DNA of 64,000 bases from a bacterium (lineage in GTDB: Bacteria > JAJVIF01): contig JAJVIF010000001.1 of the NCBI GenBank assembly GCA_022072165.1, positions 1,426,001-1,490,000 on the forward strand, in the 5' to 3' direction. Each line of letters opens with the position of its first letter. The stretch's first letter is position 1. The position numbers were made by a program, and so were the translations under genes. Of the stretch, positions 2,370 to 59,551 are shown one piece after another. The notes beneath the pieces were generated by a model. The model saw nothing but the letters and a program-made list of their open reading frames with translations. It did not search any database and was not told the DNA's origin.

Positions 2370-3020
2370 TCAGACGCCCCGGGTGGCGGGGTCCCAGATG
2401 TGTTTGTGCAATTGTGCCTGAAAGCGAACCTGGAGCCGATCCGCCAGGATCCAGCTGGCGAGCTCCTGATAGTTGAGTTGCCCATGCACGGGGGAAAAGA
2501 GCACCGGGCAGCGTGCCGCGAGCCGGTGCTCCGCCACCACGCCCCGCGCCCATTCATAATCGGCACGACCAGCCAGCACGAACTTCACTTCGTCGTGGGG
2601 AGTCAGCAGATCGAGATTCGCCCAACGATTCCGGTCTGCCTCGCCGGAGTCAGGGGCCTTGAGGTCCATGATCCGTTTCACCCGGGGATTCACCGGGGCG
2701 AGGTTGTACGCGCCGGAAGTCTCGAGCATCACCTCATACCCGCTGTCGAGCAACGTCTCCATGAGGGCGACTGCTCCGGGCTGTGCCAGGGGTTCGCCCC
2801 CCGTGACCTCCACCAGCGGACAGCCGAAGGCCGCCACCTCCGCCAGGATCGCCGCGATGGTCATCGACGTGCCGCCGGTGAAGGCATACGCCGTATCGCA
2901 CCAGACACACCGCAAGGGGCAGCCGGTCAGCCGGACAAAGACACAGGGGCGGCCTGCCTGGGTCCCTTCACCCTGGATGGAGTGGAAGATTTCGGTCACC
3001 GTGAGCTGGCCGGACGTCAC
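2370..3020 (-). CDS. queE: 7-carboxy-7-deazaguanine synthase (radical SAM)
   Basis: QueE converts 6-carboxytetrahydropterin to 7-carboxy-7-deazaguanine on the queuosine/7-deazaguanine pathway. The family N-terminus VTEIFHSIQGEG is followed by the radical SAM cluster motif CPLRCVWC (CX3CX2C) and the SAM-binding motif TGGEP. About 216 residues, the normal size. I chose the GTG at 3020 because TACACT (3027-3032 on the minus strand) ends 6 nt before it, as in many neighbouring leaderless genes. An ATG at 3071 would add 17 non-homologous residues and put this start 2 bp from the divergent ABC gene's ATG. queD, the preceding pathway step, is at 6656. Confidence 0.92.
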   Translation of the reverse strand: MTSGQLTVTEIFHSIQGEGTQAGRPCVFVRLTGCPLRCVWCDTAYAFTGGTSMTIAAILAEVAAFGCPLVEVTGGEPLAQPGAVALMETLLDSGYEVMLETSGAYNLAPVNPRVKRIMDLKAPDSGEADRNRWANLDLLTPHDEVKFVLAGRADYEWARGVVAEHRLAARCPVLFSPVHGQLNYQELASWILADRLQVRFQAQLHKHIWDPATRGV

Positions 3021-3076
3021 GGCGGAAGTGTACCCGGCGAGTTGTGTGCCTGAGGGCGCGTAGAATGCCATCGATG
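3018..3076. promoter_or_regulatory. Divergent leaderless promoters of queE and ABC ATPase
   Basis: On the minus strand TACACT (3032-3027) ends 6 nt before the queE GTG. On the plus strand TAGAAT (3061-3066) ends 7 nt before the ATG at 3074. Both transcripts should begin at or next to the start codon. Confidence 0.6.
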
Positions 3077-4054
3077 GCGCTCACCGTCCCGGTCGTGGAG
3101 GTCACCGACCTCACCAAGCACTTTGGCGCGGTGGCCGCGGTCCGGGGGATTAGTTTTGCGGTGGCGCCCGGGGAATTTTTTGGCCTGCTGGGTCCGAACG
3201 GGGCCGGGAAAACCACCACCATCAAGATTCTGTCGACTCTGCAGCTGCCGACCTCGGGGACCGCCCGGATCGCGGGCCACGATGTCGTCCAGGCCCCCGA
3301 TGCGGTGCGTCGGCGCATGGGGATCATCTTCCAGGACCCCTCCCTGGATGACCGCCTCACCGCCCGGGAGAATTTGCAGTTTCACGCGGCGCTCTATGGC
3401 ATCCCTTCGCAGGTCGCCACGGAGCGGATCGGCATTCTGCTGGAGGTCATGGGGCTGACAGAGCGGGCGGGAAGCCCCCCCCGGACCTTCAGTGGCGGGA
3501 TGAAGCGTCGCCTGGAAGTCGCCAGAGCGCTGCTGCATGTCCCCAGCATTCTGATCCTCGATGAACCGACAACAGGACTCGATCCGCAGTCGCGGCGCGC
3601 CTTTTGGGACCTGATCCGGAGTATCCGCAACGAGCGCGAAGTGAGTGTCCTGCTCACCACACACTATATGGAAGAAGCCGAAGTCTGCGACCGGCTGGCA
3701 ATCATGGACGAGGGGCAGATCATCGCGCTGGACTCGCCTGCCGCCCTCAAGGGGGATCTGAAGGGCGAAACCATCGAACTCCGTCTGGCTCCTGGTGAGG
3801 CGCCCGCGGACTTTCCCTATCCGGCGGAAGCAATGGCGGACAACAAGTGGCGACTGAAGGTCGAGCAGGCAGACACCGCCCTGCCACTCCTGGTGGAGCG
3901 GTTCGGGACACGGATCCTGTCCCTCGATGTGCAGCGTCCGAGCCTCGATGATGTCTTTATCGCGCTGACCGGCAAGGCGATTCGGGAAGCGGAAATGGAT
4001 GGCAAGGGACGAATGCGGCAGATCATGCAGCGCCACGGAGGTCGCTTCCGGTGA
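3074..4054 (+). CDS. DrrA-type ABC exporter ATP-binding protein
   Basis: This roughly 326-residue ATPase matches the daunorubicin-resistance (DrrA/CcmA-like) family. It has Walker A GPNGAGKTTTIK, Q-loop IIFQDPSLDD, signature FSGGMKRRLEVARAL, Walker B ILILDEPTTGLDP and H-loop TTHYMEEAE, then the C-terminal domain that regulates this subfamily. The ATG at 3074 follows a -10 TAGAAT by 7 nt, so translation is probably leaderless. The TGA stop overlaps the GTG of the lipoprotein gene (GTGA), and that gene overlaps the permease gene, so the three form one tight transport operon. Confidence 0.92.
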   Translation: MALTVPVVEVTDLTKHFGAVAAVRGISFAVAPGEFFGLLGPNGAGKTTTIKILSTLQLPTSGTARIAGHDVVQAPDAVRRRMGIIFQDPSLDDRLTARENLQFHAALYGIPSQVATERIGILLEVMGLTERAGSPPRTFSGGMKRRLEVARALLHVPSILILDEPTTGLDPQSRRAFWDLIRSIRNEREVSVLLTTHYMEEAEVCDRLAIMDEGQIIALDSPAALKGDLKGETIELRLAPGEAPADFPYPAEAMADNKWRLKVEQADTALPLLVERFGTRILSLDVQRPSLDDVFIALTGKAIREAEMDGKGRMRQIMQRHGGRFR

Positions 4055-4893
4055 CCCGACAAACGTTCCCTGCTGGCTCTGTCATCCTGCTGCTCCTGCT
4101 GAGTGCAGTTGCCGCAGCACTCGTGGCGGGCTGCACCCGGAATTCACCGGAGCGAAAGGAGTCCGCGAAGGCCGGGAAGATCGAGGCAAAATTCACCCCT
4201 GAGAATCCGCACTATCCCAAGCCTGCGGTGCGACGTCCGGATAACTCCGCTGCGGCCGCGAGCCGGACGTACTGGAATCGGCTGACCGGGGTCGCGCCGC
4301 AACCGTTGCCTGAAGCGGAACGTCTCACGACTCCCCTGCTGCAACTCCCCTGGGGCTGCTCCCCCGAAGAGGCGGAAGCGTTGCTCCCCACCGGCTGGAG
4401 CAGAATGCGGGATCCTTCGCCGCCACTTTATCCGCCCACCCTGACCGGCTTTGAAACCCGCACTTATGGCATCCAGCAGTTTCCGGGAAAGGCCATGGGA
4501 GGCGCGACCATCACGCTGGGGTATCACCAGCGGGCGTTGGGCGAACAGCGCATTCTATTGAGCATGACGCAGGATGGCGGTGACCGGCTGATCGCCAGCG
4601 GCCTGTGGGAGCGGTACGGGCCGACTTCCGTGGACCGGGAGCAGGCCCCGGACGATGAAGCTCAGATGTGGGTGAAAGCGATTACGCTGGACTGGCCCGA
4701 CCCGCCGTCGCGGTCTGTGCAGGGGTGGATCTCTCTGCAGGCGCGATACGAGGGGCATCTGGCCGGGACCCCCTCGAATTTCCTGTCCAATGAGGACCGC
4801 TGCAACCGGGTTTCGCTGGTCGCGATGTCCCCATCGCACGACGCGGCATTGCGGAAAGCGCTGGGCCGGAAAGCCGGAGGGACGACGCATTGA
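4051..4893 (+). CDS. Predicted lipoprotein inside an ABC exporter operon
   Basis: This 280-residue protein has an N-terminal hydrophobic stretch (SVILLLLLSAVAAALVAG) and a lipobox LVAGC, so it is exported and lipid-anchored, presumably periplasm-facing. The rest is hydrophilic and Pro/Arg-rich, and I recognise no domain. It starts with GTG overlapping the ABC ATPase stop (GTGA) and ends in TGA overlapping the permease TTG start (TTGA). This placement between the ATPase and permease genes implies a fixed stoichiometry with the exporter. It could be an accessory or substrate-handling lipoprotein; that role is inference from position only. Confidence 0.75.
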   Translation: MTRQTFPAGSVILLLLLSAVAAALVAGCTRNSPERKESAKAGKIEAKFTPENPHYPKPAVRRPDNSAAAASRTYWNRLTGVAPQPLPEAERLTTPLLQLPWGCSPEEAEALLPTGWSRMRDPSPPLYPPTLTGFETRTYGIQQFPGKAMGGATITLGYHQRALGEQRILLSMTQDGGDRLIASGLWERYGPTSVDREQAPDDEAQMWVKAITLDWPDPPSRSVQGWISLQARYEGHLAGTPSNFLSNEDRCNRVSLVAMSPSHDAALRKALGRKAGGTTH

Positions 4894-5735
4894 GCCAGCC
4901 CATCGCGACCTCCACCGCTGCGCTCCAGCAGCTCGCGGGCTGGGCGGCCGGTGATCTGCCGGAAGAAACGACCCTGCGTCGCTACGGCAGAGCGATCTAC
5001 TACCTTTGGCTGCGGGAGCTGCTGCGGTACTTCCGGGAACCGGTGACGTTCTATGGGTCACTGGTCCGTCCGATCCTCTGGCTCTTTGTGCTGGGGGTCG
5101 GGATGCAGGCGCATTTCGCGCCACAGGGGGTGACCGGGGATGTCACCTATACGCAGTACATCTTTCCCGGCATCGTGACGATGAGTGTGCTCTTTACGGG
5201 ACTCTTTCAGGGCGTCACGATGATTTTCGACCGGGAGTTCGGCTTCCTCAAGGAGATTATGGCGGCCCCGGTCCCGACCCTGGCGATTCTGATCGGGAAA
5301 CTGGTGGGAGGCGCGACCCTCGCCATGATTCAGGGTGTCATCGTGCTGGCCTTTGCCCCAGCGGTACATGTCCATTTTCCCCTGATCCAATTGCCGCTCA
5401 TCCTGGGGGTCATGTTCATGATGGCGCTCGGCACCACCGCCATCGGACTGCTGATCGCCCAGCGGATGACGAGCTTCGAAGGGTTCGGGACGATCGTCAA
5501 TTTTCTGGTGTTTCCCCTTTACTTTTTGTCCGGGGCAATGTTCCCGCCGACAGGTCTGCCCCCCTGGTTGCAGACGCTGGTCTATCTCGACCCTCTCGCG
5601 TATGGGGTCGATGCCTTTCGGCATCTGCTACTGGGTTCCGGGGTCTTTCCGCTGGCGCTCGATCTGGGGTTGTCAGTAGGCTTGAGCCTGGTGCTTATCG
5701 TGCTGAATCTGATGTGGTTCCGACGGACCAGTTAG
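4890..5735 (+). CDS. ABC-2 type permease (DrrB-like)
   Basis: This 281-residue membrane subunit of an ABC-2 exporter has six hydrophobic segments. The ABC-2 signature region is present: RELLRYFREPVTFYGSLVRP at the N-terminus, FDREFGFLKEIMAAP in the cytoplasmic loop and LSGAMFPPTGLPPWLQ before the last helices. It is the natural partner of the DrrA-like ATPase at 3074. The start is TTG overlapping the lipoprotein stop (TTGA), giving translational coupling; no Shine-Dalgarno sequence is evident. Its TAG stop overlaps the stop of the convergent HAD gene. Substrates of this family include drugs, lipids and polyketides; none can be assigned here. Confidence 0.9.
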   Translation: MSQPIATSTAALQQLAGWAAGDLPEETTLRRYGRAIYYLWLRELLRYFREPVTFYGSLVRPILWLFVLGVGMQAHFAPQGVTGDVTYTQYIFPGIVTMSVLFTGLFQGVTMIFDREFGFLKEIMAAPVPTLAILIGKLVGGATLAMIQGVIVLAFAPAVHVHFPLIQLPLILGVMFMMALGTTAIGLLIAQRMTSFEGFGTIVNFLVFPLYFLSGAMFPPTGLPPWLQTLVYLDPLAYGVDAFRHLLLGSGVFPLALDLGLSVGLSLVLIVLNLMWFRRTS

Positions 5736-6616
5736 TCCAGCAGCGGCAACAGGCAGGTCTGGACAGCCTCGGCGATGCCATCGGCATCGTTCGCTGCGAC
5801 CCGGACATCGGCGGCGGCAAGGGCGGCGGCTGTGGCATTACCCATCGCGACTCCGATGGCGGCTCCCCGCAGCATGGGCAGATCGTTGGCGTCATCGCCC
5901 ACCGCTACGACACGCGAGAGAGGGATGCCGCAGGCGGCCGCAATCCGCTGAACGCCGGGCCACTTCCCCCCTGCGGGGTCGAGGACTTCCAGCACAAAGC
6001 TGGGAGCCGGGGGCACCTGCATCGCGTGGAGATAAAGGGCTCCGGGGAACTGCCGGTCGAGATGATCAGCGGCAGCAGAGGTCGCCTCCGGGGAGCCGAA
6101 TGCCAGCAACTGAATCACCGGACCCGGCGGGAGGTGCTCTGGCGGGGCGATGGCGACCAGGCCATCGTAGCGGCGGGTCAGGACCTCGGCGTGATAGGTG
6201 CCGGGGTCCGCGGGAATTGACCAGATTTCCGGGGGGTTACCAAAGCGATCCAGATGTGCCACCGGGGCAAGCCCTTCGGCCAGAATCGCCTGCCAGGTGA
6301 CGCCGAGGAGTGCGGCGGGAAAGTCGATCCGCTCGATGGTCTCGTGGGTGTGAGGGTCTTTGAGCAGCGCGCCGTTGTGTGACAACACAAAACAGGGCCA
6401 GGGGAGGTCCCGCAGGGGTTCAATGGCAGCGCGATATCGGCGTCCGGTGGTAATGACGACCGCTGCTCCCCGGTCGACAGCCTCGCTGAGTGCACGGATG
6501 GCCGAGGGCGGGATGGACTGGTCCGGCAGCAGGAGTGTGCCATCGAGATCCAGAGCCATGAGGGCGCGACGAGGGGTCGGATAGCGGGCAGCGGCGTAGG
6601 AAGCAAGGGAGGTCAC
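5732..6616 (-). CDS. HAD superfamily (Cof-type) phosphatase
   Basis: This 294-residue Cof/YbiV-type hydrolase (HAD subclass IIB) has motif I ALDLDGTLLLP with nucleophile Asp about residue 23, motif II threonine in VVITTGRR, a motif III lysine in GGKWPGVQRIA and motif IV VGDDANDLPML. The cap lies between motifs II and III. The family dephosphorylates sugar phosphates, flavin precursors or pyridoxal phosphate. The flavin genes nearby (ribE, ribD) make a role in riboflavin synthesis worth considering, but that is inference. I chose the GTG at 6616 because TATCCT (6628-6623) ends 6 nt before it; the longer frame to 6700 would run through the queD promoter and start codon. Confidence 0.85.
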   Translation of the reverse strand: MTSLASYAAARYPTPRRALMALDLDGTLLLPDQSIPPSAIRALSEAVDRGAAVVITTGRRYRAAIEPLRDLPWPCFVLSHNGALLKDPHTHETIERIDFPAALLGVTWQAILAEGLAPVAHLDRFGNPPEIWSIPADPGTYHAEVLTRRYDGLVAIAPPEHLPPGPVIQLLAFGSPEATSAAADHLDRQFPGALYLHAMQVPPAPSFVLEVLDPAGGKWPGVQRIAAACGIPLSRVVAVGDDANDLPMLRGAAIGVAMGNATAAALAAADVRVAANDADGIAEAVQTCLLPLLD

Positions 6617-6658
6617 GGCGGCAGGATACGCGGAAGTGACTAGAATGCGTCGGGTATG
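6614..6658. promoter_or_regulatory. Compact divergent leaderless promoters, HAD gene and queD
   Basis: The two start codons are only 39 bp apart. On the minus strand TATCCT (6628-6623) ends 6 nt before the GTG of the HAD gene. On the plus strand TAGAAT (6641-6646) ends 9 nt before the queD ATG. The -35 region of each promoter must lie inside the other gene's promoter or coding region. Confidence 0.65.
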
Positions 6659-7018
6659 CCAACCACGCTGGTCAAAACCTTCACCTTCGAGGCGGCCCAC
6701 CGGCTGCCGTACCTGCCGTCAGACCACAAGTGCTACCGGCTGCACGGGCATTCCTTCAGGGCGGAGGTAGCCGTCACCGGGGAGCTGGACCCGGCGCTGG
6801 GGTGGGTCATCGACTATGCCGACATCAAGGCGGCTTGTGCACCGGTCCGGGAAGCGCTGGATCATCGATATCTGAATGAAGTCCCGGGACTGGAGAATCC
6901 GACCTCGGAGCTGATCGCTCAATGGATCTGGGAGCGTCTGAAGCCGGTCCTGCCGGGACTGGTCCGGGTCACGGTGGCGGAAACATGTACGGCACGTTGT
7001 GATTTCACGGGCCCGTAG
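6656..7018 (+). CDS. queD: 6-carboxy-5,6,7,8-tetrahydropterin synthase
   Basis: QueD, a member of the 6-pyruvoyl-tetrahydropterin synthase fold, makes 6-carboxytetrahydropterin from dihydroneopterin triphosphate for QueE. At 120 residues it is the usual size. Visible zinc ligands are His15 (FEAAHRLP), His30 and His32 (LHGHS). The catalytic Cys26 sits in [11 protein letters not shown], and LDHRYLNEV and the glutamate of VAETCTAR complete the active site. It is expressed as a probable leaderless message from TAGAAT at 6641-6646. Spelling of the pathway is supported by queE 3.6 kb away; queC is not in the window. Confidence 0.93.
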
Positions 7019-7107: not shown

Positions 7108-7125
7108 TCCAGTGCCGATGCCAGA

Positions 7126-8610: not shown

Positions 8611-8622
8611 GGAGGCAAAGTA
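8608..8622 (-). promoter_or_regulatory. Leaderless promoter of the CCA-adding gene
   Basis: TACTTT at 8622-8617 on the minus strand ends 6 nt before the GTG start codon. No Shine-Dalgarno sequence could fit in this interval. Confidence 0.55.
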
Positions 8623-8698
8623 TCACGGACTGGCACCGGCGGAACTCCCATGTATCCTGTAGGGCAGTTCCCGAGATTCTGCCCGCCAGCGGAGCCGT

Positions 8699-10548: not shown

Positions 10549-10563
10549 TACACTCCCCGTGTG
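10549..10563 (+). promoter_or_regulatory. Leaderless promoter, decides a GTG start
   Basis: TACACT (10549-10554) ends 6 nt before the GTG at 10561. The longer frame starting at 10510 would place this element inside coding sequence. Confidence 0.55.
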
Positions 10564-12010: not shown

Positions 12011-14932
12011 TTAGTAGTCGATCACGCGCCGCTGGATCCGGGCCAGCGAACCGGCTCCGGAGGCGTTGTAGAAGGTGCAGGCGATGCGGTCGATGGTGCC
12101 GTCATACGCGATGCGGGGATGGAGGGTGCTGTCGGTGGTGTTGTCGATGGCGAATTCGACGTCGTTGAAGGTCAGGTCGGCATTCAGGAAGCGGCCGTAG
12201 ACGTCAGCGTTAGCGGAGCCAGTGCGATAGTCGCGCCAGACCACGAGGAAACGACCCAGGTTGTCACGAATCGCGTACGGGGAAGTTTGTCCTACATCCG
12301 CAGGCTGGCTCACGGCGACCGGGGTGCTCCAGGTGCCAGTGCGACGAGTGACATAAATGTCGTTGGTGGCAGTGGTGAAGGCGTTTTCATCATAGAAGAC
12401 CACGGGGTTGCCCGCCTGATCCGTCAGGATGAAACCGTGCATACTCGCCGCCGTCTGCAGGGAAGTAGAAACCCGTTCCTCAGCGGCAACCGGAGTATTC
12501 GTGTTGGTATCAAAGGCGCGATAGAAGAGCCCATTGTCGGGTCCAGCCGTGGTGTTGGCGTTGGTCCAGACGACATGCAGGATACCGCCACTCCCCATCA
12601 CCATGTGGGGATCATTGAGGTTCCCGATGTGCGACGCGGGATCCAGGCCGGTGCTCACCGACGCGAACGACGCCGCGCCAGCAGCGTTGGTCACGGCATA
12701 GATGTGGAGGTTGTCGTTGGACTGGTCCGACACGCTGCTGGAGGGAGTGGTGTCACGATTCGCGAGAATCCAGGCTTTATTGGTGTCGGTGGGGTCGGCC
12801 ACGATCATGGGGTCGCGCCACTCGGCGACCGCGCTGACCGTCTGCACCGGATTGATAGTGACGCTGGCACCGGCTCCCGGGACGATCCTCATGAAGGCGA
12901 GATTGCCACCAGCACCGGAGGTCCCGGTCGAGATGTACGCCGCCACGACATTGCCGTTCGCCAGGACCGCCAGGGACCCGCCGTTCGACGAACTAATCCC
13001 CGTCATGTCCACGGGCGCGCCCCAGGTGACGCCGCCATCATTGGAACGAATGATGGTGTTCGTCAGGGAGCCGGGTCGGTAGGTGACATAGATGTTGCCA
13101 TTGCCATCGGAGACCATGGGATTCATGAAGCGATCCCACTGATAACTAAAGGTCCCCTGCAGCTGTGAGGGCGCGACCGGATTGTTGGGGCCGATCGTCG
13201 GGGTGATCGGACCGGCAGCCGAGGTGACATTGACCGTGAAGGGACCGTACTCCGTAGAGAGGCGTCCGCCAGCCGGCAGATACGCATCGGTGATGCGGAG
13301 CTTGTACTGCTGGGAGGGATTCTCGACCGTGTAGGTATGGGTGAAATCGGGGGCGTTGTCCCCGGAGGTTGCCGTGATGCTGGCATCCCAGGTCCCGTTG
13401 TTGTCCCAGTCAACTTCGAAGAGCGACAAGCCATCGGGATCCAGGGTCGCCAGCCCAGGAACCGCCGTGTCGAGGTCGATGTTGAAGGGCGTGTCAACCA
13501 CAACGCTGGGCGGGAAGGTGAAAGTGGTGCTCGCTGGCGGGCCGAGGTTCGGTGGACCAGAGTTGAAGTCTTCGACGAGGACCCGAACGACCTGGTAGCG
13601 GGTGCTGGAGAGGGTCGCGCCCGGCACCGGGACCGTGCTCGCCTCACTGAGGATGAAGGGCTTGATGCCAGTCGGCGACCCATCATCCAGGTCCTGGCTG
13701 TCCTGCACCCGGATGAGGCCGGCCACCCATTCGCCGCCAGGAGCGACGTCGTACAGGTCAGTGTTGTTCACCGAGACCCCTGACTCCCAGAGCACAGGAT
13801 TCCCGGCCACCGGAGCGACCGCCGACCCATTCAGCGGCCCGCTGGCATTCAGGAGCGGGAAGTCGGCATCGATGGCGATGATGGAGGAATCTTCCCGGAC
13901 TTCGGTCAGGTCCGCACCATTGGGGAACGTGGCGGCCACTGTCGCATCGTGATCCCAGTCGAGGATCTGGAAGGCGACGGACGCGATGTCACTGGACTGG
14001 TCATCGCGCAGGGTGCCACTGACACTGGCAGAGATACGCTGCAGGTCACCGCAGGCCTCGGGGAGGATGTAGCGCAGGTCGGTGGGGTTTCCGGTGGGGA
14101 GTCGCTTGGTTCGTCCGGCACCAGTGCTGCGCGGATCCTGATACTTGGCCGTGACTACGAGAGTGAAGTTGAAGGATCCGGATCCCGGAGGGGTCACTTC
14201 GTACATCACCTCAGCAGCCCCCCCCTGCGGGAAGACATCGAAGCCGCTCGGGCTCAGCAGGGCGTTCCCCTGCCAGCCGTTGTTGGTAGCGTCGTAGTTC
14301 CCCTGGGCGGTCCGGGGCTGCGTGGTGTCGATACCGGCCGCGAAGAGGCGATAGGGAAAGACATTCGCACCGCTGGTGGGAATCCCGAAGGTGGTTTTGT
14401 CGAAGAGGACGCCCGGGTCGCGATAGCCATCGGCGTTCATCAGGAAGTTCGCGTTGGTCTTGACGTTGCCATTGAAGAAGGTGTCAGCGCCATCGATGAC
14501 CGCGATCCCGTTGACATCGAAAACGTGCAGATCGACCCGCTTGGTCGCCGAGGGAGGGCCGTTCAGGTCCGGCGGTGCAGCGAAGGGGTGGGTCAGGCGG
14601 ACTGTGAGTTCCAGGTTGCCATCACCGTTGCGCTGAATGCCGGTGAGTCGAAGATTCTTCGGGCCAAGGAAGGGACGAATGCTGAGGTGAAAGTTGTCAC
14701 CCTGCCCGGCGGCTTCCCTGGGAAAGAGGGGGGTCGCTTCGTAGTTGAGGCTCGCAGGGTCGATGGTGACTTCCATCGCGCCCAGTGATCCGGTTGCCAT
14801 GTCGCCCAGCCCCACGACTGCGCCAAAGGGATCTGGCTGGCTGATGGACTGGGAAGCAGGAGCAAGAGGGCCTGAGGTCGAGCAGGCAGCAAGCGTGAAT
14901 ACTGCCGGCAGTGCGACAAACAGTCTGCGCAT
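12011..14932 (-). CDS. Very large secreted lipoprotein, HPF/NADGY family member 1
   Basis: A 973-residue lipoprotein: signal MRRLFVALPAVFTLAAC with lipobox LAAC (Cys17), then a Ser/Pro linker. The N-terminal domain, about residues 40-230, carries QGDNFHLSIRPFLGP, LTHPFA, KRVDLHVFDV, NADGYRD and GFDVFPQGG. A middle region has ILDWDHDATV near residue 310 and a PKD/cadherin-like DPDGLSLFEVDWDNNGTW. The C-terminal third holds an Asp-box (SNDGGVTW) and repeated WRDPMIVADP, AVSQPA and VWRDYR strands, as in sialidase-like beta-propellers. It has a GGAGG ribosome binding site and a -10 TAGGAT at 14975-14980. Closest in-window relative is the tandem neighbour at 15092. The function is unknown; surface binding is a guess. 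Confidence 0.85.
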   Translation of the reverse strand: MRRLFVALPAVFTLAACSTSGPLAPASQSISQPDPFGAVVGLGDMATGSLGAMEVTIDPASLNYEATPLFPREAAGQGDNFHLSIRPFLGPKNLRLTGIQRNGDGNLELTVRLTHPFAAPPDLNGPPSATKRVDLHVFDVNGIAVIDGADTFFNGNVKTNANFLMNADGYRDPGVLFDKTTFGIPTSGANVFPYRLFAAGIDTTQPRTAQGNYDATNNGWQGNALLSPSGFDVFPQGGAAEVMYEVTPPGSGSFNFTLVVTAKYQDPRSTGAGRTKRLPTGNPTDLRYILPEACGDLQRISASVSGTLRDDQSSDIASVAFQILDWDHDATVAATFPNGADLTEVREDSSIIAIDADFPLLNASGPLNGSAVAPVAGNPVLWESGVSVNNTDLYDVAPGGEWVAGLIRVQDSQDLDDGSPTGIKPFILSEASTVPVPGATLSSTRYQVVRVLVEDFNSGPPNLGPPASTTFTFPPSVVVDTPFNIDLDTAVPGLATLDPDGLSLFEVDWDNNGTWDASITATSGDNAPDFTHTYTVENPSQQYKLRITDAYLPAGGRLSTEYGPFTVNVTSAAGPITPTIGPNNPVAPSQLQGTFSYQWDRFMNPMVSDGNGNIYVTYRPGSLTNTIIRSNDGGVTWGAPVDMTGISSSNGGSLAVLANGNVVAAYISTGTSGAGGNLAFMRIVPGAGASVTINPVQTVSAVAEWRDPMIVADPTDTNKAWILANRDTTPSSSVSDQSNDNLHIYAVTNAAGAASFASVSTGLDPASHIGNLNDPHMVMGSGGILHVVWTNANTTAGPDNGLFYRAFDTNTNTPVAAEERVSTSLQTAASMHGFILTDQAGNPVVFYDENAFTTATNDIYVTRRTGTWSTPVAVSQPADVGQTSPYAIRDNLGRFLVVWRDYRTGSANADVYGRFLNADLTFNDVEFAIDNTTDSTLHPRIAYDGTIDRIACTFYNASGAGSLARIQRRVIDY

Positions 14933-15091: not shown

Positions 15092-17776
15092 TCAGGGCGT
15101 GAGCTGGAACCAGCGCGACCGGATCTCGTAGTTGCTGTCCGGGGCAGACAGAGGGCCACCAAAGCCGGACCGTTCATAGCAGACCACGTTGCGCTGCCGC
15201 ACGACATCGATGATCAGATGCGGATACCGGACATCCGCCGCCGGGATGTCGGTATGGGCGCGGGTCGGGGCGACCAGTTCTGTGGTGAGGTCAGCCGACC
15301 GGGCAGCGAGGTAGATCTCATCAGCCGAGACACCGCGTCGCATGTACGCCACGATCACCGCCCCACTCCCGGCGGCATCGACAATGACATCCGGCATCTG
15401 GCAGTCCGCCCCGGAGCTATCCACCAGCACGGGGGCGCTGAAGGCGGTGCCAGCGGCATCCCCACGAGCGATGTAGATGCGTCCCTGGTTGGAGTCATTC
15501 CCCAGCCAGCGTTCCCAGACCACCAGGGCACGTCCGGAGGAGTCGACAAAAATGTTGGACTCACCGACATTGTCGGTACCCGAGTTAGAGATGTTGACTT
15601 CAGCCCCCACCACCGGACTGGTGGCAGGTGACGTGACTTTCACATACCGGACATCGTTCGTCCCAATGGGACCAGCGATGTAGCTGACATGGAGATTTCC
15701 CGTGAGGTCCGCGACCATCCCCTGATTCGTCTCGCCGTTGAGCCCGCCGCCTCCGTTGGCGTCCGGGGTGGCGATTTGGGTCCAGGTGGGAGTCGCTGCC
15801 TGGGCATTGGCGGTCCGGAAGAGGACCAGGCGGTTGTGATTCGGGCTCGAGGAGTAGGTGTCCCGGGCCAGGAGATATGCCCGATTGCCGGTGAGGTCGC
15901 TTAAGTCACCTGAGAGGATTGTGCCGGAGTAGGCCCCCGGCGACCCGACGATACTCCCGATCGCCCCATTCCAGGTCGTCAGACTGGGAGCGCTGTCGGT
16001 CCCCCGCAGCATCCCCAATGTTTCGGTGGGCGAAGAGCCCGAGGAGCCGACAATCATCGGCTGGCTGACGGAGAGTGTGGGCAGGACACTCATGCTCAGG
16101 GAGTCGCTGACTCCCGTGGTCAGCGTGCCCAGGAAGGGCGTCGGAATCTGCACGGGGGAACCCCAGGAATCGCCCCCATCGGTGGAACGGGAAACGAACC
16201 AGCTGTTGGGGCTCGCGTTCCAGCGGTAGAAGTAGTAGAGGTCGCCCTGGGGATCTGCCGCCTGGATCCGCTTGTACTCGTAGGTGTACGTCCGGATGTC
16301 GCGGAAAGCCTGCGCGGGGTCCGCGTTGATCGGCACTTCCTGCGACTGAAACGTGATGCCTGCCGGTGGTGCCACGACATCGGTAACTGTCACGGTAAAG
16401 GCCTGGTAGCGGACGGTCGGCAGGAGGGTGGTGCCCGGATTCGGGAGCGGCGCAGTGGAGGCCTCGCTGAGGACCTGCTGCAGGACCCCGGTCGGGCTGG
16501 TGTCGTCGCTGTCCTGGCTGTCGGTGATGCGAACCAGCCCCTTCACTTCGACCGGAGCCCCGGTCACCGGGAACGAGTCGGTATTGGTGAGGTCACCGTT
16601 GATGACCGTGATGGGGTCGCCAGGGGTAATGGTCAGCCCCAGGGGGAAGGGCCCGCTGGCCTGGAGGTCGGGGAGGTCGGCGACCGCGTTGATGGGCGCG
16701 GAGTTTTCGGGAATTTGGCTCAAGTCGCTGTTGTTGGGCCAGGAAGCCGGATCAATGACTGTCGCGCCGCCATCCCAGTCGAGGACCTCGCCCGTCAGGG
16801 GGACTGTCGCGGCCGGATCGTTATCCGGCAGCGTTCCGGTCACTGTCACAGTCAGGCGCTCCAGGTCGCCCGCGCCCTGCGGGAGGAGGTAGCGGAGGGC
16901 GGCAGGATTGCCCGGATCCGGGAGGCGGTTCGCCCGCTTTTGCGTGGCGGTCGTGCCGTTGCGCGGGTCCTGGTACTTCGCGACCACAATGACTCCCAGA
17001 TTCACCAGATTCCCACTCCCCAGATCGAGGATGAGGTCCCGCTCGACATTGGCCCCCTGGGGGAAGACCCCATAGCCGGTCGGAGCCGACAGCGCCGTCC
17101 CCTGCCAGCCATCAGCGGTCGGGTTGTAGTTGCCGCCGGGGTTGCCGCTGTCGTAGCTGCCGACCATGACATAGGGGAAGGTATTGGCGGAGGAGACGCC
17201 GAAGCCTGCCGGATCAAAGAGAGGACCAGTGGTCCGGTAGCCATCAGCGTTGGTGACAAATCCATGATTGAGTGTCACGGCTCCATCAAAAAAGCTGTCA
17301 GTCCCTTCGGCGACCAGCACCAGATGCGTCTCGAAGACATGGAGATCGAGTCGTTTGGTCGCCGTAGCCGGACGGGTAGTATCGGTCGGGACCGCAAAGG
17401 GATGCGTGACCGTCACGGAGATCTTCAGTTCGTTGGGCGAGATGAGTTCGATGCCGGACACCCGCAGATCCCGGGGCCCAAAGAAGGGCCGGATCGACAG
17501 GGCATAGGTGTCTCCTTGGCCGAAAGTGGTCGCACTGGCGGTGTGGACCGGCAGGAGGATCGCCTGCAGGGTTTCGGGGTCCAGCGACAGGGTCCAGGCT
17601 CCCAGCGCGGCCGTCAAGTTGCCCGTGGCATCGGCGATAGGCGGCGGCAGTGTGATCTTTTCTCCCGCGACCTGGGCGGGAGTGGTCGGGGAGGCGGCAT
17701 CGCCACAGGAGGTAAGCAGCAGGGCTGTCGTGGCTGCAGCGAGCAGCGGGAGCGTGCGAAGGATGGATCGAGGCAT
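15092..17776 (-). CDS. Very large secreted lipoprotein, HPF/NADGY family member 2
   Basis: An 894-residue lipoprotein: signal MPRSILRTLPLLAAATTALL with lipobox LLTSC (Cys24). Its N-terminal domain closely parallels the neighbour at 12011: QGDTYALSIRPFFGP, VTHPFAVP, KRLDLHVFE, NADGYRTTGPLFD, PTGYGVFPQG and KYQDPRNG. A VLDWDGGATV motif follows, then a C-terminal propeller-like region with Asp-box STDGGDSW and strands such as NRAYLLARDT and GRALVVWERW. I chose the ATG at 17776, which has AAGGA upstream; the frame runs 32 codons further without homology. The adjacent relative suggests tandem duplication followed by strong divergence. Confidence 0.85.
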   Translation of the reverse strand: MPRSILRTLPLLAAATTALLLTSCGDAASPTTPAQVAGEKITLPPPIADATGNLTAALGAWTLSLDPETLQAILLPVHTASATTFGQGDTYALSIRPFFGPRDLRVSGIELISPNELKISVTVTHPFAVPTDTTRPATATKRLDLHVFETHLVLVAEGTDSFFDGAVTLNHGFVTNADGYRTTGPLFDPAGFGVSSANTFPYVMVGSYDSGNPGGNYNPTADGWQGTALSAPTGYGVFPQGANVERDLILDLGSGNLVNLGVIVVAKYQDPRNGTTATQKRANRLPDPGNPAALRYLLPQGAGDLERLTVTVTGTLPDNDPAATVPLTGEVLDWDGGATVIDPASWPNNSDLSQIPENSAPINAVADLPDLQASGPFPLGLTITPGDPITVINGDLTNTDSFPVTGAPVEVKGLVRITDSQDSDDTSPTGVLQQVLSEASTAPLPNPGTTLLPTVRYQAFTVTVTDVVAPPAGITFQSQEVPINADPAQAFRDIRTYTYEYKRIQAADPQGDLYYFYRWNASPNSWFVSRSTDGGDSWGSPVQIPTPFLGTLTTGVSDSLSMSVLPTLSVSQPMIVGSSGSSPTETLGMLRGTDSAPSLTTWNGAIGSIVGSPGAYSGTILSGDLSDLTGNRAYLLARDTYSSSPNHNRLVLFRTANAQAATPTWTQIATPDANGGGGLNGETNQGMVADLTGNLHVSYIAGPIGTNDVRYVKVTSPATSPVVGAEVNISNSGTDNVGESNIFVDSSGRALVVWERWLGNDSNQGRIYIARGDAAGTAFSAPVLVDSSGADCQMPDVIVDAAGSGAVIVAYMRRGVSADEIYLAARSADLTTELVAPTRAHTDIPAADVRYPHLIIDVVRQRNVVCYERSGFGGPLSAPDSNYEIRSRWFQLTP

Positions 17777-17867
17777 CGGCGGAGTCCTTCCCTTGTGGGC
17801 AGCAGATGGGCGACACCGGGGGTGTGCGGAGCAGGGTGGGTCGGGACAGAACCCCCGGATGGCGAAA

Positions 17868-17880
17868 AGCATCCTATGCT
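17868..17880. promoter_or_regulatory. Overlapping divergent -10 elements in an inverted repeat
   Basis: The inverted repeat AGCAT-CCT-ATGCT contains TATGCT (17875-17880) reading right and TAGGAT (17876-17871) reading left. The rightward transcript would have a leader of about 28 nt with GGGAGGG before the ATG at 17915; the leftward leader to 17776 is about 90 nt. Confidence 0.55.
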
Positions 17881-19807: not shown

Positions 19808-19809
19808 GG

Positions 19810-21893: not shown

Positions 21894-21905
21894 GGGGGGA
21901 TGATA
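21891..21905 (-). promoter_or_regulatory. Leaderless promoter of upp
   Basis: TATCAT on the minus strand (21905-21900) is followed by six C residues and then the ATG. This is a plain example of the window-wide pattern. Confidence 0.6.
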
Positions 21906-22107: not shown

Positions 22108-22125
22108 TACAATCCCACCTTGATG
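22108..22125 (+). promoter_or_regulatory. Leaderless promoter upstream of 22123 gene
   Basis: TACAAT (22108-22113) ends 9 nt before the ATG at 22123. A TTG immediately before the ATG is a possible alternative start. Confidence 0.55.
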
Positions 22126-22946: not shown

Positions 22947-23240
22947 TCAGCTTATCTGTTCTGTGGCAGCTGCATCCTGCTCGGCGCGGTAGACCGCCGC
23001 GAGAAGTTCCGCCACCACTTCGTACATCTCCGCCGGAATCTCGCCGCCGACCGGAACCTGCACCAGCACCTGCGCCAGCGCTGCATCACGCCGGACTTCC
23101 AGTCCATGCTCCGCTGCGAGGGCAAGAATCTGCTCTGCCAGTGCGCCGCGACCACTGGCGACTACCCGGGGTGCCCGGTCCCGCTCCTGGTCGTAGCGCA
23201 GGGCTGCCGCGAGTTTTGGTGGGTCCGGCAGGGTGCTCAT
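22947..23240 (-). CDS. Orphan FlhB C-terminal domain (EscU/YscU switch-like)
   Basis: This 97-residue protein matches the cytoplasmic C-terminal domain of FlhB/YscU: AAALRYDQERDRAPRVVASGRGALAEQILALAAEHGLEV, then VQVPVGGEIPAEMYEVVAELLAAVYRAEQ. The membrane domain and the NPTH self-cleavage motif are absent; ASGRG occupies the equivalent region. The window has no flagellar or type III secretion genes. Stand-alone FlhB-like proteins exist in some genomes, and their role is unclear. The ATG at 23240 has GATACT ending 7 nt upstream; 23264 is an alternative start. Confidence 0.78.
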   Translation of the reverse strand: MSTLPDPPKLAAALRYDQERDRAPRVVASGRGALAEQILALAAEHGLEVRRDAALAQVLVQVPVGGEIPAEMYEVVAELLAAVYRAEQDAAATEQIS

Positions 23241-23296
23241 GCCCCCGAGTATCGGACATCCCATCGGCCTCTGTGTTTAGTGGTGCGTGTTACACT
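23238..23296. promoter_or_regulatory. Divergent promoters, FlhB-like gene and lipoprotein 3
   Basis: GATACT on the minus strand (23253-23248) ends 7 nt before the ATG at 23240. TACACT on the plus strand (23291-23296) starts the lipoprotein message, leaving a leader of over 100 nt. Confidence 0.5.
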
Positions 23297-25312: not shown

Positions 25313-25328
25313 TACACTACCTCGCATG
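25313..25328 (+). promoter_or_regulatory. Leaderless promoter of the lipid kinase gene
   Basis: TACACT (25313-25318) ends 7 nt before the ATG at 25326. Confidence 0.6.
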
Positions 25329-37248: not shown

Positions 37249-37320
37249 GAGGGCAGGATACTCGAGGTGCCTTCCGCTCGAGGCAGTCGAAAACCGTGCG
37301 TGGCGTATCCTCTCCCCATG
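37246..37320. promoter_or_regulatory. Divergent leaderless promoters, CtlX-like gene and pyrD
   Basis: Both genes have TATCCT ending 6 nt before their ATG: minus strand 37260-37255 for the ATG at 37248, plus strand 37306-37311 for the ATG at 37318. Confidence 0.65.
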
Positions 37321-46110: not shown

Positions 46111-46173
46111 GGCAGGGAGCAGCGTACCGCAGAGAGGGGTCAGGATTGCCTCTGCTACGCTTCAGCCGTGATG
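46108..46173. promoter_or_regulatory. Divergent near-leaderless promoters with identical -10 TACGCT
   Basis: TACGCT on the minus strand (46126-46121) ends 10 nt before the PNP-like ATG, and TACGCT on the plus strand (46156-46161) ends 9 nt before the symporter ATG. Confidence 0.6.
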
Positions 46174-48712: not shown

Positions 48713-48729
48713 TATACTGCGCGATTGTG
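48713..48729 (+). promoter_or_regulatory. Leaderless promoter of 48727 gene
   Basis: TATACT (48713-48718) ends 8 nt before the GTG start codon. Confidence 0.6.
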
Positions 48730-50463: not shown

Positions 50464-51293
50464 GGAGTGCCGTTCTGGAGTTCTTCGCTCAGAGCTTCGG
50501 GATTGTCAGCTGCCCAGACCACCGGTGAGGGACCTCCAGGCGGCGCCGGGACCGGGGTCTTGGCCATCAGTTCCTCCAGATTCACCAGACGCTGGTAGTC
50601 CTGTCGGCGACCACTCCCCACCCCCGGCTGCCAGTCATCACCCCGCACCGAGGCCACCAGCTCCTCCAGGCCGAAGCCATCGTGGAGGTAGCTCCGGACG
50701 ATGTGCGCCAGCATTTCCTGGAAGAACACCCGTCGGTAAGTGAAATCGACGATGAGGTCGGCGTTCTGCATGGTCGGCCGGATGAAAGTTTCGTAGCTGG
50801 GACGGACGAAGCGCTGGTAGCGGTCGATGTTCCACTGTACGGAGCCCTCCCGCTCGTGCATGTCCCGCAGGAGCCGTCCGATGAGGCGCTGATCGGGATC
50901 GACGTGGAGGAAGACAGTCAGGTCGAACAGCGCCACCAGGGGCCAGGCCAGGAGGAACAGTCCATCCACCACCACCACCGGACGGGGCTCGATGTGGTGG
51001 GTCTCTTCGAGCTGGCGTTGCTGCCGGAAATCGTACAGTGGAGCCTCGATGGCCTGCCCGGACTTTAGCGCTTCGAGGTCCCTGGCGAAGCGGGCGAGTT
51101 CGATATGCCGGGGATGGTCGAAGTTGATGTCCCGGACATCGATGCTGCCATCGCCTGCTGGGGTCATGAAGTACTGATCCATGCTGAGGCGGGCGACCTG
51201 CGCCTTGCCCGCTTTTCGCTGGATGTACCGGGCCAGGTAGGTTTTGCCGGATCCCGAGCCGCCTGCGATACCTATGAGGATGGGGTCTGCCAC
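50460..51293 (-). CDS. udk: Uridine kinase family protein
   Basis: A 277-residue P-loop kinase of the uridine kinase/phosphoribulokinase family. IGIAGGSGSGKTYLARYIQ is the Walker A loop; LSMDQYFMTPAGDGSIDVRDINFDHP and VVVVDGLFLLAW contain the substrate-binding DQYY-like motif and DG(I/L)FLL; RLLRDMHERE is the lid. A C-terminal extension of about 60 residues is unlike E. coli Udk. It phosphorylates uridine or a related nucleoside. The start is GTG at 51293 with CATAAT (51307-51302) 8 nt upstream, so leaderless. The gene is coupled to waaA, a pairing with no obvious metabolic reason. Confidence 0.88.
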   Translation of the reverse strand: MADPILIGIAGGSGSGKTYLARYIQRKAGKAQVARLSMDQYFMTPAGDGSIDVRDINFDHPRHIELARFARDLEALKSGQAIEAPLYDFRQQRQLEETHHIEPRPVVVVDGLFLLAWPLVALFDLTVFLHVDPDQRLIGRLLRDMHEREGSVQWNIDRYQRFVRPSYETFIRPTMQNADLIVDFTYRRVFFQEMLAHIVRSYLHDGFGLEELVASVRGDDWQPGVGSGRRQDYQRLVNLEELMAKTPVPAPPGGPSPVVWAADNPEALSEELQNGTP

Positions 51294-51354
51294 GAGGGTT
51301 GATTATGCCCTGTCAGACCGCTGGGCATGGTTTCCGTACAATCGCCAGGACATG
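51291..51354. promoter_or_regulatory. Divergent leaderless promoters, udk and ABC transporter
   Basis: CATAAT on the minus strand (51307-51302) ends 8 nt before the udk GTG; TACAAT on the plus strand (51337-51342) ends 9 nt before the ABC transporter ATG. Confidence 0.6.
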
Positions 51355-55214: not shown

Positions 55215-55277
55215 ACCTGCTCCAGAGCAGTCTCTGTGCCAGCCCGCGGGAAGCGCCGACTGACTGACGATAGCGAA

Positions 55278-56471: not shown

Positions 56472-56913
56472 CACGCCTGATGCGAGACGCCGCCCATTCG
56501 ACTGCTTCGGCAAGATCGACGACATCCGGCAGCGGCGCGGGGTTACGACGGCGCAGGAGATCGACGCCCCCAGCTGGGGTGCTCAGCACGGCGCTACGGG
56601 CGTTTCCATGACGGCTGGCCCAGTCGCCGAGCGCACGATAGACCGCCTCCTGCAACAGACTGAAGCACTTGCCCTCGACAGACGAACAGCCATCGGAACT
56701 ACAGGACCGGGCGGTCACGGCCTGCAGGACTTCGGCATAGGGTCGCCCCTTGAGGTAGTCGAGGAAAACCGCCACGGTCCGGTCCATCGGCTCCTCGCTG
56801 ATGAGATCGATGGTGACCTCGGCGATGACGTCATCGCTGACAAAGACACGCGCGCGACAGAGGTCGCCCTGCCTGGTGTCTCCCACGATGGCCTGTCCAT
56901 AGGTCGCGTTCAT
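56458..56913 (-). CDS. NifU/IscU-like protein with altered cysteine ligands
   Basis: A 151-residue protein whose order of motifs recalls the IscU/NifU N-terminal scaffold: QGDLCRARVFVSDDVIAEVTIDLISEEPMDRTVAVFLDYLKGRPYAEVLQAV, then GKCFSLLQEAVYRALGDW, which parallels the HCSMLAEDAIKAAL end of IscU. The cysteine of the central GCGSA loop is not there (SEEPM instead), while SCSSDGC adds others. It may bind a cluster differently or carry sulfur for MnmA. The ATG at 56913 has CATAAT (56928-56923) 9 nt upstream, so it is probably leaderless. Its 3' end overlaps mnmA. Identification is by pattern only. Confidence 0.6.
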   Translation of the reverse strand: MNATYGQAIVGDTRQGDLCRARVFVSDDVIAEVTIDLISEEPMDRTVAVFLDYLKGRPYAEVLQAVTARSCSSDGCSSVEGKCFSLLQEAVYRALGDWASRHGNARSAVLSTPAGGVDLLRRRNPAPLPDVVDLAEAVEWAASRIRRDDDD

Positions 56914-56928
56914 AACAGGGTCATTATG
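56911..56928 (-). promoter_or_regulatory. Leaderless promoter of the IscU-like gene
   Basis: CATAAT on the minus strand (56928-56923) ends 9 nt before the ATG at 56913. This start is shorter than the open frame, which continues to 57048. Confidence 0.5.
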
Positions 56929-57099
56929 CGGTGTTGGCGACAAATTCGGGCTTGATGCTGATGGATCCTGCCGGGATGTCGGGCTCATAGTGGGCCGAAA
57001 GCGGGACTTATCCCCCGGATGGGGAGAGTTCTGCCCTGCCGGGTGCAAAGTGGGGCAGTACTGGGGGAGAAAGGGTGCATAACTATGGCACTTATGCTC

Positions 57100-57127
57100 T
57101 TGAGATGACGCGAGGAGTCACTATACT
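57100..57127 (+). promoter_or_regulatory. Promoter of a candidate non-coding RNA
   Basis: TTGAGA (57100-57105), a 16-bp spacer and TATACT (57122-57127) form a near-consensus promoter. No credible start codon follows. Confidence 0.6.
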
Positions 57128-57133
57128 CCTCCT

Positions 57134-57588
57134 CACTGCTTGTTGACAGCAGCGACGGAGTGCACGGAACGAACCGACTCCCGAGCAGACTCCCAGGAAT
57201 GGCCGCCAGGGATGGCAAGCTCGGAACCAGAGCGAGTTCGGGATGCGGGCGCACCGGTCGAAATCATCGTCCTACACTTCCGCAAGGGGTGCGAGCGATG
57301 ACAGGCGCGATCAGGATCTCACGACCCTGTCCGCGCCGGGAGGTCCCCGCAAGGGTGAACTCTGACGCACCGGCAATTTGCCCCGTTCAACTTTCCGCCG
57401 AAACACCGGCTCCGCGAGCGCACAGCCGGGTCCGCGATGGGGGGGGAGCCCCATCACCGCCTGACGGGATGACTGTCAGGGTCCGGGGACCCGAATCTGC
57501 CGCAGTCGCTGCGATGATCTGACGGTCCGGACCGTGGGGATCATCAGTCAACACTCCCGCGAGGCACCCCAGCAATGGGGTGCCTCGT
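57134..57588 (+). ncRNA. Candidate structured non-coding RNA, about 450 nt
   Basis: Between the IscU-like gene and the CPBP gene no ORF with normal composition exists. The stretch has many paired segments: CTGCT/AGCAG near the start; CCGAGC (57181-57186) with GCTCGG (57219-57224); GGCGCG and CAGG (57304-57315) with CCTG and CGCGCC (57326-57337); AAGGGTGAAC (57351-57360) with GTTCAACTTT (57385-57394) around GGCA-ATT-TGCC; GATGATC with GATCATC (57513-57545) enclosing ACGGTCC-GGACCGT. A promoter precedes it and a terminator ends it. It lacks the hallmark sequences of RNase P, tmRNA or SRP RNA, so its class is open. Confidence 0.55.
57561..57588 (+). terminator. Terminator of the candidate ncRNA
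   Basis: CGAGGCACCCC (57561-57571) and GGGGTGCCTCG (57578-57588) form an 11-bp stem with loop AGCAAT, followed by TCTGCTTTCT. Confidence 0.78.
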
Positions 57589-57654
57589 CTGCTTTCTGGT
57601 TCCTTCACTGAGCCCCGTAGCTGGTGGCTCGAATGGCGCGATCGTTTGGACGTG

Positions 57655-57673
57655 TACGCTACCCGGTGCCATG
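57655..57673 (+). promoter_or_regulatory. Near-leaderless promoter of the CPBP protease gene
   Basis: TACGCT (57655-57660) ends 10 nt before the ATG at 57671. Confidence 0.55.
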
Positions 57674-58423
57674 ACGACGGCTCCTCCTCCCGCACCCGAC
57701 CACGGTGATCCGCCCCCGCTCCTTTCCTGGCTGGCGCTGGTCATCGTGCTGGCTGCGACCGGGCTGGAAGTGACGACCATTTTGCAGGCGCAACTGGCGG
57801 GGTCAGAAGTGGCGATTGAGCGACTCTTCACTCCGGCGGCGCTGGGACTCGTGACGGTGCAGCTGCTCATCGCCGGGGGGCTCGCGATGATCTGTCAGCA
57901 GCTCACCGACGGAACCTGGCTCACCCTCGGGTCGTGGGAGGTCTTCCGCTCCCGGGACGCAGCACTGCGCGCGGTCGTGCTGGGAATTGCCCTCTTTGTG
58001 CTATTGAGCTTTTTACTGCCATCGCTGCTGATTTCGATTTGGCCATCGCTGCATCAGGCACACCCCAATATTCTGGCCGGAGCGATCCCGGACCTGCAGA
58101 CACTCCTCTGGGGCCTGCCGGTCGCGGTGATTGGGGGCGGGGTCCGGGAAGAACTCTGGCGCGTGGTCTGGCTCCGGGCTTTCGAGCGTGTGGGGGGGCA
58201 GACCGGACTGCTGATCGGCTTCGCGAGCAGCGTGGTCCTCTTCGGAGCGGTCCATTGGTATCAGGGGCCGGTGGCGGTGGGCATCACCGCGGTCATGGGG
58301 CTCCTGCTCGGATGGCGCTGGATGGTTCGTCGGGATCTGTCAGAGCTGATCGTGATGCACGGACTCCACAATGCCTGCACGCTCGTGCTGGTCTGGCTCA
58401 TGCCCCACGCAGGCGCTCCGTAA
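57671..58423 (+). CDS. CPBP family intramembrane metalloprotease
   Basis: A 250-residue membrane protein of the CPBP (CAAX-protease-like) family. The motifs are VREELWRVVWLR (EExxR), FGAVHWYQG (second zinc histidine) and MHGLHNACTLVL (third). About seven hydrophobic segments, with the motifs at the ends of the later helices. These are intramembrane proteases or processing enzymes for peptides. The 3' end overlaps the 3' end of the convergent acyltransferase gene by 26 nt. The frame is open upstream to 57575, but the -10 at 57655 argues for 57671. Confidence 0.85.
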   Translation: MTTAPPPAPDHGDPPPLLSWLALVIVLAATGLEVTTILQAQLAGSEVAIERLFTPAALGLVTVQLLIAGGLAMICQQLTDGTWLTLGSWEVFRSRDAALRAVVLGIALFVLLSFLLPSLLISIWPSLHQAHPNILAGAIPDLQTLLWGLPVAVIGGGVREELWRVVWLRAFERVGGQTGLLIGFASSVVLFGAVHWYQGPVAVGITAVMGLLLGWRWMVRRDLSELIVMHGLHNACTLVLVWLMPHAGAP

Positions 58424-59456
58424 GCCCTTCGAGTTCTGGACATTGCGCGCGCCAGGGCGCCCATTGCTCTTCGGTGAGGACCCGGGAGCTCCATTCTTCC
58501 GGGGGGACCAGGTCGACCGTGGACTTGAAGCGTCGATGGAGCCAGAGCCACTGTCCGGGATATGCCCGGATCATGGCGAGGTAATGCTCATGGATACGGG
58601 CGGTGTTGAGGAGTCCATCGAGTTCGGCGTTGCCCGAGTCGAAACTCGTGAAGGGAGGACCATAAACCGGGCGGTACTGATCCCCATCCCAGACCGCGGT
58701 CAGCAGCATCGCCGGGACTTTGTACCGCTGCATGAGGAAGCCGGGGCCTTTGACACAGGAGGCGAGGCGTCCGGCCACCGGGACAAACACGCCATCCCGC
58801 CCCCCATTCTGATCCGCAATCAGCCCCAGGATCACTTTGTCCTTGCGACGCAGGGTTTCGATGAGCTTGCGGGAATTTTCCTGCGACAGGAAATGGTCGA
58901 TGCCAATCCCCTCCCGCAGATCGATGGCCAGATCCGTGAGCCGGGAGTCGCGCTGGGCTTTGCCTGCGGCGGCCATGGGGACATCGGTCACGATATGCGC
59001 TCCCGCCCACTCCCAGCTGCCGATGTGCATTCCCAGTCCGATCATGGCGCCCTGATCCGAGGCGAGATAGTTGTTCCAGTATTCTCCCCCCACAGCCGGA
59101 GCAGCCTGGGCACGGATGTCTTCAGCGCTGTAGAGGGGAAAGCGGAGGAAGTCGACCATCGTGCGGGCCAGGGTCCGCATGGACTCCTGCAGAATCAGGT
59201 CGGGATGCGCCCCTTCCGGTTGATTCGCAAGGACATCGGCGATTTGTGCAAGTGCATTGCGAAAGTTGCGGCGCAGGAAGGGCATTTTCAGCGCCAGTCC
59301 TGCGAGCCGGTCGGCCAGTTGCAGGGCCGCAGGTCGCGACATCTGCCGGACCCGCCAGGCGAGGCCCCGGGTGCCAGCCAGCTCCAGTTGTCGCCGGACT
59401 TTCAGCCGCCAGGGAATCGCGGGCACCGCATCGGTGGGGGGAGCAGCCGTGGCCAT
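58398..59456 (-). CDS. LpxL/HtrB-like lysophospholipid acyltransferase
   Basis: A 352-residue acyltransferase of the lipid A late acyltransferase family. GLGMHIGSWEWAGAHIV carries the HX4E-type catalytic pair (GMHIGSWE). GLIADQNGGRDGVFVPVAGR, with the DQ motif, and QWLWLHRRFKSTVDL, with the C-terminal WxxRR-like end, are the other family blocks. In lipid A assembly it would add a secondary acyl chain at the inner membrane. The N-terminal segment is amphipathic and there is no clear membrane helix. ATG at 59456 has TACAAT (59471-59466) 9 nt upstream. Confidence 0.87.
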   Translation of the reverse strand: MATAAPPTDAVPAIPWRLKVRRQLELAGTRGLAWRVRQMSRPAALQLADRLAGLALKMPFLRRNFRNALAQIADVLANQPEGAHPDLILQESMRTLARTMVDFLRFPLYSAEDIRAQAAPAVGGEYWNNYLASDQGAMIGLGMHIGSWEWAGAHIVTDVPMAAAGKAQRDSRLTDLAIDLREGIGIDHFLSQENSRKLIETLRRKDKVILGLIADQNGGRDGVFVPVAGRLASCVKGPGFLMQRYKVPAMLLTAVWDGDQYRPVYGPPFTSFDSGNAELDGLLNTARIHEHYLAMIRAYPGQWLWLHRRFKSTVDLVPPEEWSSRVLTEEQWAPWRAQCPELEGLTERLRGA

Positions 59457-59551
59457 CGGGAAGTGATTGTACGGGGCGCTGCCGCGGGGGGAGACCGGGT
59501 TCCTATAATCGCGGCCGGTATCTCAACTCTGGCCGCCGGACCTGCCCCATG
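59454..59551. promoter_or_regulatory. Divergent promoters, acyltransferase and mtnA
   Basis: TACAAT on the minus strand (59471-59466) ends 9 nt before the acyltransferase ATG (leaderless). TATAAT on the plus strand (59504-59509) serves mtnA, with a leader of about 33 nt. Confidence 0.6.

Follow-up and report, generated by a model that had tools for sequence, protein, structure and literature searches.

Roughly 15-25% of the genes of this bacterium are very probably expressed as leaderless mRNAs, beside a majority of genes that are led by a Shine-Dalgarno (SD) sequence. The mark of this class is a -10-like hexamer, TANNNT, which ends a few nucleotides ahead of the start codon. The mechanism, i.e., -35-independent, -10-adjacent leaderless expression, is already known, and this genome is another instance. 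What is new is where the trait occurs: in a sparsely sampled phylum whose three other sampled members lack the peak.

The window, a stretch of 64,000 nucleotides, covers positions 1,426,001-1,490,000 of contig C1 and has a GC content of about 64%. The whole genome comprises 3.26 Mb in four contigs and is 99% complete. For analyses at genome scale we used an 864-kb sample, i.e., the window and 40 further 20-kb stretches from three of the four contigs, 26% of the genome. Gene starts were set with our own gene caller by codon usage and coding potential alone, no upstream signal being used; 695 genes were called in this way. The 3' end of the 16S rRNA is intact and keeps GGATCACCTCCTTT, with the anti-SD CCTCC. 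An SD core was defined as GGAG, GAGG or AGGA and scanned at -20 to -4.

The preliminary description had taken the hexamers of the window for a genome-level expression strategy, one which a genome-wide plot of TANNNT positions should display as a peak. A sharp peak was found on the 864-kb sample, and the claim stands. TANNNT at spacers of 6-9 nt precedes 84 of 670 genes, compared to 11.9 +/- 3.5 in 200 dinucleotide shuffles (maximum 22). At most spacers below 30 the count per position is 0-6; at spacers 9, 8, 7 and 6 it is 17, 17, 25 and 25. Flanking positions, used as a control for the 6-9 count, give 14.8. Letter orders of equal composition (ATNNNT, TTNNNA, TNNNTA, ANNNTT) yield 6-16 and no peak. 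In the window the surplus over chance was likewise confirmed: when starts are set from coding potential only, TANNNT stands 6-9 nt ahead of 11 of 55 genes, compared to 0.95 +/- 0.97 in 500 shuffles (maximum 6).

These numbers decide the objection that the hexamers are chance AT-rich words picked by eye in a genome of 64% GC. The sites were indeed listed by eye, the variants CATAAT and GATACT were accepted, and such sites are denser in the window than in the genome on average. Yet the genome-scale count far exceeds the shuffle maximum, permuted letter orders have no peak, and the window count lies above every shuffle. The objection has not survived the positional peak at genome scale, and we give it practically no credence.

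The fraction of genes was estimated with an EM mixture model which selects among candidate starts and distinguishes three classes: TA-led (24.5%), SD-led (54.8%) and neither (20.7%). The resulting motif is T.79 A.93 C.50 A.61 C.49 T.94 at spacers 6-9, with hexamers such as TACAAT, TACACT, TATACT, TAGAAT and similar words. At a posterior >0.8 the model names 129 of 689 genes; 12 column-permuted motifs name 8-38, on average about 20. After subtraction of the permuted-motif count about 16% of the genes are secure; 24% is the model estimate. The share depends on the model, with an excess of 10% for coding-only starts and 24% in the EM, and 15-25% is a fair range for the leaderless-type share after permuted-motif nulls. 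Some called sites may be hexamers that resemble a -10 box by chance, or true promoters of short-leadered mRNAs without SD. The 129 TA-led genes start with ATG (103) or GTG (26). An SD core is present in 5% of TA-led and 92% of SD-led genes, a contrast that arises partly by construction. Several TA-led starts agree with homologues and Pfam boundaries; the homologue check covers 17 genes. Together, the peak and the EM class support a genome-level expression strategy as far as the 864-kb sample reaches.

The window is richer in TA-led genes than the remaining sample (22/56 vs 134/633, p=0.004), at least partly because a reader had picked it out. Column-permuted motifs label on average 5 of its 56 genes (maximum 13), the real motif 22. 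On contig C3 (stretches L031 and L051), 1 of 22 genes is TA-led, compared to 141 of 602 on C1 and 14 of 65 on C2; the sample is small, and this replicon may differ from the others in its use of TA-led starts.

All 20 starts listed in the preliminary description were re-read. In each, an in-frame ATG or GTG follows the end of the hexamer after 6-10 nt; six are GTG, as several had been said to be, and the statement that no room is left for an SD agrees with an SD core at -20 to -4 in 0 of the 20 genes. TANNNT occurs at 17 sites (including 8610), CATAAT at 51293 and 56913, and GATACT at 23240. The latter two words are weaker variants, yet CATAAT at such spacing is enriched (4 vs 0.3 expected). 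The EM model, trained on the 864-kb sample, labels all 20 genes TA-led with posteriors of 0.64-1.00 and adds two window genes, 61820 and, weakly, 45045. At 3020, 6616, 10561, 37318, 46171/46168 and 51352 the coding-only start differs from or competes with the listed one; these six starts were shifted towards the signal by the EM model. The predicted -10 hexamers of the window, with one contrast case at leadered distance, are:

3027..3032, minus strand: TACACT, spacer 6 to GTG 3020 (gene 3020-2370), posterior 0.64
3061..3066, plus strand: TAGAAT, spacer 7 to ATG 3074 (ABC transporter ATPase, 3074-4054), TA-led in the EM model
6623..6628, minus strand: TATCCT, spacer 6 to GTG 6616 (HAD-like hydrolase, 6616-5732)
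6641..6646, plus strand: TAGAAT, spacer 9 to ATG 6656 (6-pyruvoyl tetrahydropterin synthase family, 6656-7018)
8617..8624, minus strand: overlapping GATACT/TACTTT, spacers 8/6 to GTG 8610 (CCA tRNA nucleotidyltransferase-like, 8610-7126)
10549..10554, plus strand: TACACT, spacer 6 to GTG 10561, start moved from 10510 by the EM model
21900..21905, minus strand: TATCAT, spacer 6 to ATG 21893
22108..22113, plus strand: TACAAT, spacer 9 to ATG 22123
23248..23253, minus strand: GATACT (variant), spacer 7 to ATG 23240
25313..25318, plus strand: TACACT, spacer 7 to ATG 25326 (diacylglycerol kinase/YegS family)
37255..37260, minus strand: TATCCT, spacer 6 to ATG 37248 (DDAH family)
37306..37311, plus strand: TATCCT, spacer 6 to ATG 37318, start moved from 37300 by the EM model
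46121..46126, minus strand: TACGCT, spacer 10 to ATG 46110
46156..46161, plus strand: TACGCT, spacer 9 to ATG 46171 or 6 to GTG 46168 (MFS transporter)
48713..48718, plus strand: TATACT, spacer 8 to GTG 48727
51302..51307, minus strand: CATAAT (variant), spacer 8 to GTG 51293
51337..51342, plus strand: TACAAT, spacer 9 to ATG 51352, start moved from 51280 by the EM model
56923..56928, minus strand: CATAAT (variant), spacer 9 to ATG 56913
57655..57660, plus strand: TACGCT, spacer 10 to ATG 57671
59466..59471, minus strand: TACAAT, spacer 9 to ATG 59456 (lipid A acyltransferase-like)
61826..61831, minus strand: TATACT, spacer 5 to GTG 61820, additional case, posterior 0.85
8653..8658, plus strand: TATCCT at leadered distance, 40 nt before the SD-led ATG 8699, position derived from the 40-nt spacer (contrast case)

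The Pfam domains PTPS (gene 6656) and DAGK_cat (gene 25326) each begin at residue 5. The ATG at 46171 has an in-frame GTG at 46168, and either start fits. For the gene at 3020 the start codon of the homologue in relative G002 lies one codon off the expected place; the G002 homologue of the ABC transporter ATPase at 3074 carries an SD instead. A palindrome, GCCATCGATGGC, at 3063-3080 overlaps the start codon of the 3074 gene and creates an alternative minus-strand start at 3071. Elsewhere in the window, two tandem genes on the minus strand (12011-14929 and 15092-17872) encode members of a family of proteins of about 950 aa with some 30 matching places in the genome. This family has many matches also in G002 and few elsewhere; a weak BNR_2 match was its only Pfam hit, and no solved structural relative was found.

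From its placement the hexamer is best identified as the genome's own -10 promoter element. TA-led starts make up 33% of divergent genes (59/180) and 10% of close operon followers (14/135; p=2e-6). Being commonest before divergent genes and rare inside operons, the hexamer behaves as a promoter should. The TA near starts might have come from the stop codons (TAG/TAA) of upstream genes, but divergent genes, where the signal is strongest, speak against such an origin, and it was rejected. Further, the strong form of the motif, TA[CTG][AC][AC]T, is located 35-49 nt before the codon of SD-led genes, with 25 occurrences in 178 genes where about 1 is expected; printed SD-led examples show the order -10 box, leader, SD, ATG. 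A histogram drawn independently of class has maxima at 5-11 and at about 33-50, separated by a trough at 12-29, the counts being 29 hits in 7 positions, 41 in 23 and, in the trough, 8 in 18. Spacers of 13-32 nt are almost empty of the motif. Leaders of intermediate length, which would leave no space for an SD and yet exceed what a leaderless start allows, are avoided. A -35 box was sought upstream of the -10 box in the leaderless set by EM and by consensus, and none was found; the motif likelihood is 27.5 in the -35 zone and 24.4-29.9 in control zones.

Could the hexamer be a translation element instead, i.e., an AT-rich, non-SD ribosome-binding motif inside a leader? It sits where an SD would sit and is mutually exclusive with it. 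Against such a function, the same motif occurs at promoter distance, 35-49 nt, before SD-led genes, it is concentrated at divergent rather than operon-internal genes, and a second -10 motif farther from the codon is very rare in TA-led genes. In Deinococcus radiodurans, moreover, the same motif bound RpoD and an RBS was no substitute for it (PMC12340547). We consider a translation element very improbable. Scarcely greater is the probability that the -10 boxes are real while the genes have very short leaders of about 3-10 nt or are translated from a codon further downstream. Spacers of 9-12 nt in 36 of the 129 genes would put the start a few bases before the codon; however, the spacing peaks at 6-7 nt, so that +1 falls on the codon, and spacers of 13-32 nt are almost empty.

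We therefore return to leaderless transcription as the preferred reading. A base that lies 6-9 nt behind the end of a -10 box is approximately +1 to +4 of the transcript, which supports the proposal that transcription starts within about 3 bases of the codon. The hexamer would be the -10 element of promoters read by the housekeeping sigma factor. In roughly 15-25% of the genes transcription would begin on the codon's first base or no more than about 3 bases ahead of it, from promoters that would work from the -10 box with no recognizable -35 box. If the mRNA is leaderless, translation must proceed without an SD; presumably, the 5'-terminal AUG or GUG is recognized directly by ribosomes, probably 70S, carrying the initiator tRNA. 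Most other genes would be SD-led; their visible promoters have this -10 box 35-49 nt or more ahead of the codon, with a leader which holds the SD. Sequence statistics show the identity of the motif, its spacing, the two placement classes, the lack of SD and -35 box and a mixed system with an intact anti-SD; where the transcripts begin, which sigma factor reads the promoters and the 70S route we infer.

In 11 of 90 divergent pairs both sides are TA-led. The median distance between start codons is 58 bp in these pairs and 164 bp in other pairs (p=0.007). The window contains five such pairs with start codons 39-69 bp apart. At 6616/6656 back-to-back leaderless promoters are predicted, with start codons 39 bp and -10 boxes 12 bp apart, and at this distance simultaneous occupancy by two polymerases seems unlikely. 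Two divergent TA-led pairs outside the window, L016:18489-18509 and L019:3331-3360, would, provided that their starts are correctly placed, have -10 boxes that overlap and only 19 and 28 bp between the start codons.

A different picture emerges in the relatives. A search of genomes across the phylum returned four members, this genome and three of the same class (G001, G002, G003), the latter being fragmented drafts from other families. Their GC contents are 48.5%, 44.4% and 46.9% vs 64% here. The TANNNT peak at spacers 6-9 is absent from all three: 14/206, 20/320 and 5/89 genes were counted, at or below backgrounds of 21.4, 33.2 and 6.8, respectively. The SD signal is clear in each. For the relatives the EM wandered off to diffuse A/T-rich words, which we did not take as promoters. 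Ribosomal protein bS21 is absent from 4 of 4 genomes and S1-domain proteins are present in 4 of 4; IF3 was found in three and missed in G003, which is 82% complete. In an alignment of the main sigma factors from this genome, G001 and G003, the promoter-contacting stretches are nearly identical. bS21, S1, IF3 and the sigma factor do not account for the contrast. Base composition (64% vs 44-49% GC) would be its obvious correlate. On balance, we lean towards the view that a single high-GC family of this small phylum gained or kept leaderless expression on a genome scale, the other sampled families being without it despite the same absence of bS21 and closely similar sigma factors.

A -10 box next to the start of leaderless genes is an established arrangement in Actinobacteria and Deinococcus-Thermus (Zheng 2011, PMC3160421). 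In the latter, TANNNT, with TACACT prominent, is located about 6-7 bp from the ORF in nearly a third of ORFs, beside genes with GGAG-type SDs. In D. radiodurans -10-adjacent leaderless expression was confirmed by mutation, and in Deinococcus the lack of a -35 is tolerated (Zhong 2025, PMC12340547). Run through the same pipeline, plasmid DNA of D. deserti and D. radiodurans displays the same peak and E. coli none; the EM procedure returned TANNNT at 6-7 nt and 24.5% for D. deserti plasmid DNA. The genome studied here resembles Deinococcus-Thermus in a TANNNT near the ORF, in coexisting SD genes and in needing no -35. It differs in belonging to another, sparsely sampled phylum, in a slightly broader spacing (6-9) and in a somewhat lower share. 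It works alike and is not a member of the Deinococcota, since its phylum has only four genomes in the search whereas the Deinococcota are well sampled. Further, every Deinococcota species examined in PMC12340547 has the -10 motif, whereas here it is absent from the three sampled phylum relatives.

Mycobacterium tuberculosis, of an unrelated phylum, likewise has a TANNNT -10 without a conserved -35, and leaderless genes are 26% of those with a primary TSS (Cortes 2013, PMC3898074). TSS mapping demonstrates leaderless starts for the same motif geometry (PMC3898074); 5' ends are mapped there and predicted from sequence here. According to a citation in PMC9581028, GeneMarkS-2 predicts that 21.6% of bacterial species use leaderless transcription; such genomes resemble this one in mixing leaderless and SD genes and in a promoter signal adjoining the starts.

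With these observations, a phylum with few sampled genomes joins those in which leaderless genes abound. The start codons of this genome call for a promoter-aware gene finder, and the packed divergent leaderless pairs (39-69 bp) offer suitable material for studying how two promoters share one short region. Within one class, families can differ in the trait, and here they do so in parallel with GC (64% vs 44-49%). If it did arise or persist in one family only, the phylum would lend itself to asking, by comparison, why a bacterium switches to leaderless genes.
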